Below, in pieces: positions 39,486-44,707 of a stretch of 64,000 nucleotides of DNA. Numbering within the stretch: the stretch's first letter is position 1; every line of letters starts with the position of its first letter. This DNA is from Acidocella aromatica (GTDB lineage Bacteria; Pseudomonadota; Alphaproteobacteria; Acetobacterales; Acetobacteraceae). The translations under genes were made by a program, and so were the position numbers. Under the pieces are notes generated by a model, which worked only from the letters and a program-made list of their open reading frames with translations, did no database searches and had not been told where the DNA came from. Location of the stretch: assembly GCF_014201825.1 (NCBI RefSeq), contig NZ_JACHFJ010000002.1, forward strand, positions 186,001 to 250,000. Reading direction: 5' to 3'.

Positions 39486-40268
39486 ATGGAACTGCTGGAA
39501 GCGCTGCGCCTGCAATGGGAATGGGGAGCTGACGAGGCCCTGCTGGATGCGCCGCAGGACCGCCGCCACGCCGCGCCGCCCCCGCCAGCGCCCGAAAACG
39601 CCTCCCCGCCCCCCGCCCGCCGTGCTGCCCCAGCGCCGCGCGCCGCCGCCATGCCCGCCGGCCCGGCGGAAGCCCGCGCAGCTGCCGCCGCCTGCCAAAG
39701 CCTGGAGGAGCTGGAAACGGCGATGCGTAATTTCACCGGCTGCGCCCTGCGCGATACCGCGACCCAGCTCGTCTTCGCCGATGGCGCGGCGGATGCGCGG
39801 CTGATTATCGTGGGCGAGGCGCCGGGTGGCGAGGAAGACCGCGCGGGCAAGCCCTTCGTCGGGCCCGCCGGGCAGTTGCTGGACAAGATGCTCGGCAGCA
39901 TCGGGCTGGACCGCACCAAGGTGCGTATCATCAACACCGTGCCCTGGCGCCCGCCCGGCAACCGCAACCCCACCGAGGCCGAGATCACGCTCTGCCTACC
40001 CTTCCTGCATCGGCAAATCGCCCTTATTGCCCCGCGCGGGCTGATGGCGCTTGGCGCGGTGGCGGCCAAGGCGCTGCTGCCAGCCGAAGGGGCGACGGGC
40101 ATACGTCGCCTGAGGGGGAGTTGGCGAGAAGCTGAGATCGATGGCCTGCCCGCGCCGCTGCCCTGTCTCGCGACGTATCACCCCGCCTATCTGCTGCGCA
40201 CGCCGCTGGCCAAGGCAGAGGCGTGGCGGGATATGCTAACCCTTAAAGCTTGGTTAGAAACCGCCTAG
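39486..40268 (+). CDS. Uracil-DNA glycosylase, family 4
   Basis: 260 aa. A Pro/Ala-rich N-terminal tail (about 1-70) precedes the catalytic domain with GEAPGGEEDRAGKPFVG (motif 1), NTVPWRPPGNRNPT and the HPAYLLR end motif (motif 2 with catalytic/binding His). Family 4 enzymes carry a 4Fe-4S cluster; the Cys in NFTGCALRD, in TLCLPF and in PCLATYHP are candidate ligands. Removes uracil from DNA. Confidence 0.9.
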   Translation: MELLEALRLQWEWGADEALLDAPQDRRHAAPPPPAPENASPPPARRAAPAPRAAAMPAGPAEARAAAAACQSLEELETAMRNFTGCALRDTATQLVFADGAADARLIIVGEAPGGEEDRAGKPFVGPAGQLLDKMLGSIGLDRTKVRIINTVPWRPPGNRNPTEAEITLCLPFLHRQIALIAPRGLMALGAVAAKALLPAEGATGIRRLRGSWREAEIDGLPAPLPCLATYHPAYLLRTPLAKAEAWRDMLTLKAWLETA

Positions 40269-42056: not shown

Positions 42057-42062
42057 ACCGGA

Positions 42063-42096
42063 CCGCTCATGCGCGCAGGCCATGGGCGGTTTTTTT
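42063..42096 (+). terminator. Rho-independent terminator after the lytic transglycosylase
   Basis: A 9-bp stem (CCGCTCATG / CATGGGCGG, one G-T pair) with a 9-nt loop is followed by seven T. Textbook intrinsic terminator, 6 bp past the stop codon. Confidence 0.9.
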
Positions 42097-42105
42097 GTCT
42101 TAAAT

Positions 42106-42120
42106 GTTCTTGTTTTGTTC
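42106..42120 (+). promoter_or_regulatory. LexA box (SOS operator), upstream copy
   Basis: An exact GTTC-N7-GTTC, the alphaproteobacterial LexA consensus. It ends one base before the -35 hexamer of the promoter that serves the radical SAM gene, where LexA would block RNA polymerase. Confidence 0.75.
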
Positions 42121-42149
42121 TTGACTGTCGCAATGCGAAATGATTTATA
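42121..42149 (+). promoter_or_regulatory. Sigma-70 promoter of the radical SAM gene
   Basis: TTGACT (42121-42126), exactly 17 nt, TTTATA (42144-42149). It is among the best matches to the sigma-70 consensus that I noticed in this window, which suits a gene kept off by a repressor. Confidence 0.7.
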
Positions 42150-42156
42150 AAAACAA

Positions 42157-42171
42157 GAACGGAGCATGAAC
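42157..42171 (+). promoter_or_regulatory. Second LexA-like box over the transcription start
   Basis: GAAC-N7-GAAC, the reverse complement form of the same consensus, begins 7 bp after the -10 box and covers the expected transcription start and the GGAG ribosome-binding site. Because it partly coincides with GGAGCATG it could be chance; with the first box it makes a two-site operator. Confidence 0.5.
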
Positions 42172-42174
42172 ATC

Positions 42175-43281
42175 ATGGTGGTGTCCCGGATACAGGTCAA
42201 CAGCGAGATCGGTCATGGCGCGATCAAGGGCCGTGGTACCCCCGTGAATCCCCCCAACCGCTTCGAGCGCGCGCACGGGGAAGCCTTCGACGATGGCTGG
42301 GACCTGCCCAAGGAAGACGCCACCAAGCCACAAACCATGCTGATCCGCGACGCCACACGCAGCATCATCACCCGCAACGACAGCCCGGACATCGCCTTCG
42401 GACAGAGCGTGAACCCCTACCGGGGCTGCGAACACGGCTGCATCTACTGCTTCGCTCGCCCCAGCCATGCTTATCTCGGCTTTTCCGCCGGGCTCGATTT
42501 CGAGACCAAGATCGTCTTCAAGCCCGAGGCGCCGCGCCTGCTGGAGAAAGAACTCTCCCGTGCCGGGTATAAGCCAGCGGTGATCGTGCTGGGCTCCAAC
42601 ACCGACCCGTATCAGCCGGTGGAGCGCACGCTGGGACTGACACGGGCGATCCTCGAGGTGCTGGAGAAGTTCGGTAACCCGGTCGGCATCGTCACCAAAT
42701 CCGCCGGGGTGCTGCGCGATGCCGATATCCTGGCGCGCATGGCCTCAAAACGTCTAGCGCGGGTGTTCATCTCGGTCACCACGCTAGATCCAACCCTGGC
42801 ACGCACGCTGGAACCGCGTGCCGCCTCACCCGCCCGGCGTCTTTCCGTCATCCGCGAGCTTTCGGCCCAAGGGATTCCGGTGGGAGTGATGGCCTCACCG
42901 ATGATCCCCGGCGTGAACGATGCCGAGATGGAGAGCATTGTGGAAGCAGCCGCCAAGGCCGGAGCACGTAGCGCGCACACCACGCTCGTTCGCCTGCCGC
43001 ATGAGCTGGCGCCCCTATTCGTCGACTGGCTGGAGAAACACCTGCCCGGCCGGGCCAGCCATGTGCTGAGCCTGATCCGCCAGAGCCGCGGCGGCAAGCT
43101 GAACGACCCGGATTTCCATTCCCGCTTCACCGGCTCCGGTCCGTATGTGGAGATGCTGCACCAGCGCTTTGCCCGTGCGGTGAAACAATTCGGTCTGGAA
43201 GGCGGCAATGCGGTGTTGGACTGCTCCCAGTTTGCCGTGCCGCGCGCCACCCCGGCGGCGGGTCAGCTCAGTCTTTTTTGA
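42175..43281 (+). CDS. PA0069-family radical SAM protein (SplB-like)
   Basis: 368 aa from the ATG at 42175, chosen because GGAG then has workable spacing; an ATG three codons earlier (42166) is too close to it. The radical SAM cluster motif is CEHGCIYC (Cys about 85, 89 and 92 from this start), preceded by FGQSVNPYRG. The family is related in sequence to spore photoproduct lyase, but its reaction is not known. The promoter carries two LexA boxes, pointing to induction by DNA damage. The C-terminus ends QLSLF. Confidence 0.88.
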   Translation: MVVSRIQVNSEIGHGAIKGRGTPVNPPNRFERAHGEAFDDGWDLPKEDATKPQTMLIRDATRSIITRNDSPDIAFGQSVNPYRGCEHGCIYCFARPSHAYLGFSAGLDFETKIVFKPEAPRLLEKELSRAGYKPAVIVLGSNTDPYQPVERTLGLTRAILEVLEKFGNPVGIVTKSAGVLRDADILARMASKRLARVFISVTTLDPTLARTLEPRAASPARRLSVIRELSAQGIPVGVMASPMIPGVNDAEMESIVEAAAKAGARSAHTTLVRLPHELAPLFVDWLEKHLPGRASHVLSLIRQSRGGKLNDPDFHSRFTGSGPYVEMLHQRFARAVKQFGLEGGNAVLDCSQFAVPRATPAAGQLSLF

Positions 43282-43298
43282 ATCAGGAGGACCAAACG

Positions 43299-43676
43299 AT
43301 GCCGTTTGATGGACATATCGTAATCGGCCTGGCTTCGCTGTTCGGCTGTATCTGCATGCTGTTCTTTTGCGCCGCCCAGCTGATGGCAATGCTGGAGGAA
43401 CTCCGCTCCGCCCAAACGGGCTACATGGTGACGAACATCCCGATGCCCGCCACCAGCATCACCAGCGTACCCAGCCAACCGAGCATCTTCAGCCTTGGCC
43501 CAATACTGAACTGTCCCATGATCCGCGGGCTGGCGGCAAGCAGCACGGTCACCGCCATCAGCGGTACAGCCACCAGGCCGTTGATCACGGCGCTCCAGAA
43601 CAGAGCCTTCACCGGGTCGAGACTGGAAAAATTCAGCAGCGCGCCGACAAACACGGCAACGGCGATGGTGCCGTAG
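43299..43676 (+). CDS. Small membrane protein reading antisense into the Nramp gene
   Basis: A perfect AGGAGG at 43285-43290 sits 8 nt before the ATG at 43299. The first 40 residues form a plausible protein with one hydrophobic helix (about 6-32). From 43421 on, the frame runs antisense over the Nramp 3' end, with the Ser/Thr/Pro-rich look of a shadow frame. Either the true gene was cut short and now reads through, or the start is a decoy. No family recognised. Confidence 0.35.
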   Translation: MPFDGHIVIGLASLFGCICMLFFCAAQLMAMLEELRSAQTGYMVTNIPMPATSITSVPSQPSIFSLGPILNCPMIRGLAASSTVTAISGTATRPLITALQNRAFTGSRLEKFSSAPTNTATAMVP

Positions 43677-44707
43677 AACGCCTTTGCCCGCGGGGCTTGA
43701 TAAGCCAGCCCCACCGGCCAGCCGAAGGCTTCGCACAGTGCGTAGGCGGCGGACCCCGCCAATACCGGCAATGCCAATAGCCCGGTGCCGATAATGCCAA
43801 GCGCGAACACGGTGAAAGCCAAGGGCCCAGCGATAGGCCGGAGGGCTTCAGCCGCATCCGATGATGTCTGGATATTGGTGATCCCGTGCACATGCAGCGT
43901 GGCGGCGGTGGTGAAAATGATGGCCAGCGAGATGACATTGGAAAACGCCATGCCGATATAGGTATCCAGCCGGATGCGCCGCAGCTCCCGCCCGGCCTGT
44001 TCCGGCGCCTCGATCAACGGCTTGGCCACGGGGTCCCCGCGCTCGTCCTCCATCTCCTCGCCTGCTTGCCAGAAGAACAGATACGGGCTGATGGTGGTGC
44101 CGAATACCGCGACGACGACGGTGAAGTAGTCGCTAGTAAACTGGATATGCGGCAGAACCAGTTCCACGCCCACCTGCTTCCAGGGCACATCGGCGATAAA
44201 CACGGTGGCGACATATGCGAACAGTGACAGCGTCAGCCATTTCAGCACCGCGACATAGCGCGCATAACGCACGAAAACTTCCAACAGCACGGAAACAATG
44301 GCGAAGGCCGCGATGCCCACGGGCATGGGCACCGGCACCAGCAGCCGCACGGCGGCGGCCATGGCGCCCAGATCCGCGCCTATATTAATGGTATTGGCCA
44401 GCAACAACAGCAGAACGATGAGATGCAGCGCCCGCCGAGGCATGAAGCGGCGCAAATTACCCGCCAAGCCCAGCCCGGTTACGCGGCCGATCTGGGCGCT
44501 GATCACTTGGATGGCGCACATCAGCGGATAGGTCAGCAGCATGGCCCAGCCCAGCGCGTAGCCATATTGCGCGCCCGCCTGAGAGTATGTGGCGATGCCG
44601 CTGGGGTCGTCGTCCGACGCGCCGGTAATCAGCCCGGGCCCGAGAACCTGCCGCAGCCGTGGCCAGGATGGCGTTTCCTCCGCGCCCAGCTCCTCAACAT
44701 CTGGCAT
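43421..44707 (-). CDS. Nramp-family divalent metal transporter (divergent branch)
   Basis: 428 aa, about 11 membrane helices. Helix 1 reads ASDDDPSGIATYSQAGAQ, not the DPGN of classical Mn/Fe MntH, and the helix 6 region is FGTTISPYLFFWQAGEE, without the usual metal-binding MPH. These positions set metal choice, so the protein probably belongs to an Nramp-related branch, possibly with Mg2+ or another substrate. It is 4 bp upstream of nothing obvious and 4 bp before the ArsC-like gene's 3' end on the same strand. Confidence 0.8.
   Translation of the reverse strand: MPDVEELGAEETPSWPRLRQVLGPGLITGASDDDPSGIATYSQAGAQYGYALGWAMLLTYPLMCAIQVISAQIGRVTGLGLAGNLRRFMPRRALHLIVLLLLLANTINIGADLGAMAAAVRLLVPVPMPVGIAAFAIVSVLLEVFVRYARYVAVLKWLTLSLFAYVATVFIADVPWKQVGVELVLPHIQFTSDYFTVVVAVFGTTISPYLFFWQAGEEMEDERGDPVAKPLIEAPEQAGRELRRIRLDTYIGMAFSNVISLAIIFTTAATLHVHGITNIQTSSDAAEALRPIAGPLAFTVFALGIIGTGLLALPVLAGSAAYALCEAFGWPVGLAYQAPRAKAFYGTIAVAVFVGALLNFSSLDPVKALFWSAVINGLVAVPLMAVTVLLAASPRIMGQFSIGPRLKMLGWLGTLVMLVAGIGMFVTM

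Follow-up and report, generated by a model that had tools for sequence, protein, structure and literature searches.

A predicted double LexA operator in front of a PA0069-family radical SAM gene and a small membrane-protein gene in Acidocella aromatica

The locus and its predicted control region

The window analysed here is a 64,000-nt stretch of the Acidocella aromatica genome, and it carries a gene for a PA0069-family radical SAM protein that is followed, 17 nt downstream, by a small ORF for a putative membrane protein, the tail of which overlaps an antisense, convergent Nramp gene (Table 1). Two GTTC-N7-GTTC boxes flank a promoter sequence in front of the radical SAM gene, exactly as the original prediction had described them, and a GTTC-N7-GTTC direct repeat beside a promoter is the arrangement of an alphaproteobacterial LexA operator. 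The Shine-Dalgarno sequence of the radical SAM gene sits inside the 7-nt spacer of box 2, and since this spacer is purine-rich the affinity of box 2 is uncertain.

Table 1. Genes and predicted control elements of the window discussed in the text
Feature	Position	Strand	Details
Family 4 uracil-DNA glycosylase gene	39486-40268	+	
Third exact GTTC-N7-GTTC box	41169		within the transglycosylase ORF
Intrinsic terminator	42060-42092	+	3' of the lytic transglycosylase gene upstream; hairpin followed by a U run
LexA box 1 (predicted site)	42106-42120	+	GTTCTTGTTTTGTTC, GTTC-N7-GTTC; abuts the -35 hexamer
Promoter core TTGACT-N17-TTTATA	42121-42149	+	TTGACT 42121-42126, 17 nt, TTTATA 42144-42149
Alternative -10	42146-42151		TATAAA
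LexA box 2 (predicted site)	42157-42171	-	GAACGGAGCATGAAC on the + strand, GAAC-N7-GAAC
Shine-Dalgarno of radical SAM gene	42162-42165		GGAG
First ATG of longest radical SAM ORF	42166		
PA0069-family radical SAM protein	42175-43281	+	368 aa, CxxxCxxC at residues 85-92
Small membrane-protein ORF	43299-43676	+	SD AGGAGG 43285-43290, ATG 43299; reads MPFDGHIVIGLASLFGCICMLFFCAAQLMAML
Nramp gene	43421-44707	-	

The promoter had been called strong, a description that fits its -35 side, where 29 of 30 loci of the genus have TTGAC after box 1, and not its -10 hexamer TTTATA, which agrees with TATAAT at only three of six positions. The alternative hexamer TATAAA matches at five positions, but at the cost of a 19-nt spacer, and the -10 is weak and variable in the genus at large, CTTAAT being its commonest form (16/29 loci). 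A promoter scan of the window did not have the TTGACT-N17-TTTATA promoter among its calls. The proposed upstream terminator is borne out by RNA folding of the hairpin (-21.8 kcal/mol, z -3.30) and by its U run, though a consensus terminator scan called none at this position. The longest ORF of the radical SAM gene begins at the first ATG of Table 1, a start that we rejected because GGAG would lie 1 nt away from it and because the relatives begin just after box 2; ATG 42175, the start given in the original prediction, is the likelier one, since GGAG is properly spaced for it and since it agrees with the start codons of the relatives. The possibility that box 2 is an accident of a start codon followed by AAC was likewise discarded, as the L099 and L112 loci, among others, keep GAAC-N7-GAAC with no ATG in the spacer.

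The window holds three exact GTTC-N7-GTTC sites against 1.11 expected, and three or more were found in 10 of 100 shuffles, while the whole genome (2.88 Mb) holds 42 against 61 for the reversed control. The bare motif is thus unenriched genome-wide and a single box is not rare, so that the case rests on the pair, its position and its conservation. Site-by-site inspection took in 39 of the 42 genomic boxes, the three within the window being set apart. Recognised genes near boxes are lexA, recA, uvrA/ssb, a ribonucleotide reductase and, by Pfam, an S24 peptidase-type protein, while many of the remaining sites fall within long ORFs and probably represent chance matches. A single gene of the genome encodes a LexA DNA-binding domain, and it has its own upstream box, GTTCTAGTTTGGTTC; LexA and boxes at the core SOS genes lexA, recA and uvrA/ssb hence occur in the same genome as the unit described here.

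Some further observations can be made on the genomic surroundings. The S24 peptidase-type protein, which by eye has a helix-turn-helix-like start, is encoded about 120 bp from the box GTTCTTGTTATGTTC (L145, G000:C7:57100-60100) and is possibly a second LexA-like switch under SOS control, and the ribonucleotide reductase large chain is encoded about 140 bp from the box GTTCTCTTTATGTTC (L120, G000:C1:68700-71700). The uracil-DNA glycosylase gene of the window lies on the same strand as the radical SAM gene, about 2 kb upstream of it, with the lytic transglycosylase gene in between; uracil-DNA glycosylases appear in SOS or SplB contexts in passages of PMC3765255 and PMC8565304.

Conservation of the box pair in Acetobacteraceae

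The PA0069-family model matches 31 of 38 genomes of the genus, and 30 loci, chosen by the protein alone, were compared. Both boxes are present in 29/30 of them, 36 or 37 nt apart (51-52 bp centre to centre), and the same number show the full pattern of box 1, TTGAC and box 2. Half-sites and TTGAC are identical among these 29 loci by virtue of the pattern selection, and the informative part is therefore the contrast with the flanks: the 20 bases upstream have a mean majority frequency of 0.50, and most promoter-spacer positions fall between 0.3 and 0.7. The box spacers are themselves largely conserved, with five of seven positions at 0.93 or above in each box, which means that the genus alone cannot isolate the half-sites cleanly; other genera do so.

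These were sampled as 55 other genera, one genome each, drawn from the 150 radical SAM matches listed (82 of 102 genera match). Both perfect boxes were found in 37/55, and the remaining 18 comprise 14 with box 1 only, four of which are one mismatch away from box 2, three with box 2 only and one with neither, so that box 1 is present in 51/55; one genome, G073, was sampled through a second copy without box 2 (L250), whereas its other copy has both boxes (L169). A control with reversed half-sites gave four hits in 35,757 bases across the 55 genera. In the 37 dual-box genera the gaps are 33-37 nt, TTGAC directly follows box 1 in 36, and the centre-to-centre distance across genera is 48-52 bp. Conservation in close relatives, on which the original prediction had been staked, is thus what the scan revealed: the operator is kept at the orthologues both within the genus and in most of the other genera sampled. 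Chance boxes are ruled out by this conservation and by the reversed controls: neither the pair nor its retention can be put down to chance.

In the family as a whole 128 of 249 genomes contain the dual pattern with 25-50 nt between the boxes, generally a single time each, against 2/249 for the reversed control, and the radical SAM gene lies directly downstream in 29 of the 30 dual-box loci that were read. Among the matches listed, 52 of 75 dual-box places are within 600 bp upstream of a radical SAM gene and locus reading adds eight, while three of the 75 are off-gap places with no listed radical SAM gene adjoining; the remaining 12 lie outside the cross-match, among them G150:C209 (gap 36), whose genome has its listed radical SAM match on another contig. 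The three off-gap places were rejected as radical SAM operators, G004:C4 (gap 41, L162) having no radical SAM match in its 3-kb locus, and G125:C29 (gap 46) and G116:C199 (gap 26) not adjoining the listed radical SAM genes of their genomes. Outside the family the dual pattern was found in just 2 of 284 alphaproteobacterial genomes, with gaps of 29 and 39 and no TTGAC, one of them having TTTACA, and we take both to be chance sites. The predicted double operator is accordingly specific to the family and nearly absent from other alphaproteobacteria.

It may be argued that only box 1 is an operator, and that box 2 has been kept because translation needs GGAG and the leader. Box 2 indeed reads GAAC-GGA-N4-GAAC in 29/29 loci of the genus, with GGAG in 27/29 and a largely conserved spacer, 14 of the 55 other genera make do with box 1, and alphaproteobacteria at large dispense with the dual arrangement altogether, if the two sites outside the family are chance. 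However, translation has no need of two GAAC half-sites spaced by exactly 7 nt, the pair recurs in the 37 dual-box genera with 33 different box 2 spacers, and the one exception in the genus, L101, keeps box 2 (GAACACATCATGAAC) without any box 1. We therefore consider single-box control improbable, and favor a second operator at box 2.

The radical SAM enzyme and SOS control of its class

The radical SAM protein matches the PA0069-family model NF033668 along the entire profile (486.2 bits against a cut-off of 360, positions 1-348 of 348), which makes it a member of that family, and the radical SAM domain PF04055 is matched as well; the models matched assign no reaction to the PA0069 family. An AlphaFold2 model built with 44 sequences has a mean pLDDT of 80.3, the first 47 residues being mostly poor, and when it was used in a Foldseek search the six best solved structures were all spore photoproduct lyases (SPL; best 4fhg, E 8.7e-8), with TM values of 0.47-0.52 and 14-16 percent identity. 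NifB follows at rank 7 (E 2.7e-6) and then come other radical SAM enzymes, and because these are so close behind, the resemblance is one of the superfamily, with SPL first. By sequence the solved relatives gave weak partial matches only (SkfB, NifB and others), and the profile search for them returned no SPL at E up to 1.

SPL, of which 4FHC and 4FHG are structures, is thus the closest solved fold, and the model likewise combines a radical SAM fold with CxxxCxxC. According to passages of PMC3742179, SPL has four conserved cysteines, the fourth of which (C141 in B. subtilis, C140 in Gt) is the suggested hydrogen donor. In contrast, only the three cluster cysteines are conserved among the 44 PA0069-family sequences, where the next best Cys column reaches 21/43, a finding that concerns column conservation in these sequences. 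Tyr 82, 91, 132 and 146 and His 87 and 98 are invariant in the same set. The claim that the family is related to spore photoproduct lyase consequently stands as far as the fold goes and fails at the fourth cysteine, for want of which we rejected SPL membership. The gene could still be thought a true photolyase-type gene, encoding an SPL that repairs thymine lesions caused by UV, a reading suggested by the name splB used in passages of PMC3323433, and the first six ranks of the fold search and the SOS control shared with that splB speak for it; the missing cysteine, the proximity of NifB and other radical SAM enzymes in the fold search and the failure of the profile search to match SPL make it very unlikely in our view. 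On the evidence of the model the protein may rather be an enzyme on an SPL-like scaffold that is not SPL, and we infer either another hydrogen donor or a non-lyase reaction. The absence of the fourth SPL cysteine also means that the earlier suggestion of a DNA-lesion or nucleotide repair enzyme stays conjectural.

The regulation of this enzyme class can be followed beyond the family. The best 80 of at least 592 homologues found were scanned from 300 bases before the protein match to 60 bases inside it, and 68/80 proved to have a LexA box, either of the alpha or of the gamma type, the controls giving 0/80 for both types; this suggests that the substrate may be one made by DNA damage. The GTTC-N7-GTTC box occurs at 53 of these homologues, CTGT-N8-ACAG at 15 others and neither at 12. 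Going by record titles, the 53 comprise 50 alphaproteobacteria, two unspecified Proteobacteria (L020, L048) and one Mycobacterium (L023), and the 15 (L021, L022, L027, L029, L030, L033, L035, L038, L041, L046, L058, L059, L064, L073, L081) comprise 11 Pseudomonas, one other gammaproteobacterium and three betaproteobacteria. The type of predicted box hence appears to follow the clade, with at most three exceptions (L020, L048, L023), and PA0069-family genes in general look like members of the SOS response. In eight loci of other alphaproteobacteria (L019, L053, L067, L068, L078, L085, L086, L087) the ORF after the radical SAM gene carries a DEAGRGPLAGPV-like motif, which we take to be that of RNase HII.

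A literature search, covering its sources in part, found no paper joining PA0069 and LexA. PA0069 itself is reportedly in the P. aeruginosa LexA regulon described by Cirz in 2006. LexA control of this enzyme class is already known, since according to passages of PMC3323433 splB belongs to LexA regulons predicted in alpha- and beta-proteobacteria and is considered a member of the SOS response, a passage of PMC8565304 describes SplB as under SOS regulation in a number of species, and a radical SAM protein is placed in the Gram-positive core SOS regulon in a passage of PMC7739468; these genes may or may not belong to the PA0069 family. The terms 'radical SAM', 'photolyase' and 'splB' do not occur in the main texts of the Caulobacter and Dinoroseobacter SOS papers (PMC12700426, PMC6473078). 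The proposal that the radical SAM gene takes part in the SOS response is in summary well supported by the conserved boxes, by the 68/80 homologues and by the printed account of splB (PMC3323433).

The small membrane-protein gene and the proposed SOS unit

A homologous small ORF follows the radical SAM stop codon in 21 of the 30 loci of the genus, L099 and L118 ending too early; the search for it required an SD-like run, and the Shine-Dalgarno sequence is therefore no independent evidence. The products share a conserved single-helix core of about residues 1-42 with one hydrophobic segment and invariant Ser and Cys, whereas the tails are very variable. Hydropathy (a 19-residue window) finds the one hydrophobic segment in 21/21 and so describes a small protein with one membrane helix; 19 of the 21 are 61-86 aa long, and the members in the window and in L110 have 125 aa. 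Over the first 42 codons pN/pS is 0.19-0.59 in 14/14 chosen pairs, which overlap and are not independent, and the small gene is under purifying selection. Searches of Pfam and NCBIfam with five members gave no confident family, the only hits having E 0.037 or worse. A profile finds the gene in 23 of the 38 genomes of the genus (E 1.7e-14 to 2.2e-21), 22 times beside the radical SAM gene, but 21 of the 23 matched genomes had supplied rows to the profile, which leaves G033 and G018 as new matches. A scan of 110 genomes of the family, representing 102 genera, found none outside the genus, which itself accounts for two of the 110.

The G018 genome is instructive in that it has no radical SAM match. 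Its contiguous locus (L284, G018:C38:10500-15500) has a perfect box 1, TTTACT for TTGACT and a box 2 with one half-site change, 256 bp separate the first base of box 1 from the start of the small ORF, and a short remnant can by eye be seen to resemble the start of the radical SAM reading frame. That the enzyme was lost and the small gene kept suggests that the latter has a role of its own, in a case that consists of a single draft genome. The SOS context of the small gene is its position downstream of the radical SAM gene and, in this one genome, a box 1 upstream of it, and the same SOS switch probably controls it. As an alternative the small ORF could be a functionless by-product of the region between the genes, leader-like or in decay, as its restriction to one genus, the failure to find it after the radical SAM gene in several readable loci of that genus, its variable tails and the overlap with the antisense Nramp gene in the window might indicate. 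The low pN/pS in all chosen pairs, overlapping though they are, the profile matches in 23 genomes, most of them profile sources, and the retention in G018 without the radical SAM gene nevertheless render this unlikely, and a functional gene is what we prefer.

We consider it likely that the locus constitutes a transcription unit of the SOS response, controlled by a double LexA operator, with the radical SAM enzyme and the small membrane protein as its products. The sequences, their conservation, the gene order, the selection on the small gene and the similarity of fold are established above; LexA occupancy, the tightness of repression, induction, co-transcription, the substrate and the role of the small protein are what we infer. 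One LexA dimer would sit on box 1, against the -35 element, and a second on box 2, covering the transcript start and the Shine-Dalgarno sequence, so that, if transcription starts about 7 nt after the -10, box 2 would span roughly the first 15 transcribed bases. With the Shine-Dalgarno sequence lying within the spacer of box 2, one stretch of DNA would serve as both operator and ribosome site. The two dimers would flank RNA polymerase and hold the unit under tight repression until, upon DNA damage, RecA-stimulated self-cleavage of LexA freed both boxes, and the freed promoter would then drive expression of the radical SAM enzyme and, in this genus, of the small single-helix membrane protein. 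The enzyme would most likely use radical chemistry to act on DNA or nucleotides that have been damaged, on its SPL-like scaffold and by a reaction other than that of SPL.

More tentatively, and as a notion we regard as doubtful though worth stating, the unit of this genus could be an SOS checkpoint in which the small protein, as an undescribed membrane effector induced by damage, inhibits division or arrests growth; the presence of two boxes would then be explained by the need to silence it, or a harmful radical enzyme. The predicted double operator marks a gene that the cell may keep unusually silent, and the small membrane gene offers a concrete SOS effector candidate for Acetobacteraceae. 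New here are the family-specific predicted double operator, with box 2 enclosing the Shine-Dalgarno sequence, and the genus-specific small membrane gene behind it; a literature search, which covered its sources in part, found no earlier description of either and no paper on the LexA regulon of Acetobacteraceae.

Among known systems, certain E. coli promoters, those of colicin genes for example, have two LexA boxes and are associated with tight repression, and by analogy with them tight, late expression would be expected here. The likeness lies in the two operators on one promoter; the E. coli boxes are however of the CTGT-N8-ACAG type, whereas the promoter described here lies between GTTC direct repeats, the second of which contains the Shine-Dalgarno sequence. 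The splB gene of PMC3323433 is likewise an SPL-like radical SAM gene with LexA boxes, although it may not be of the PA0069 family and although the alphaproteobacterial families named in the passages of that paper are Rhizobiaceae, Brucellaceae and Rhodobacteraceae rather than Acetobacteraceae. Furthermore, those passages describe neither a double operator nor a small gene, both of which are present here, and report no splB regulation in the gamma set of the paper, whereas gammaproteobacterial homologues carry CTGT-N8-ACAG in our scan. Finally, the small protein resembles SidA, DidA, YneA and SosA, which passages of PMC4211646 and PMC13396833 describe as damage-induced small membrane division inhibitors, in that, going by description, it too is small and has one membrane helix, in its case behind a predicted SOS-type promoter, but it differs from them in that its gene lies behind that of an enzyme.
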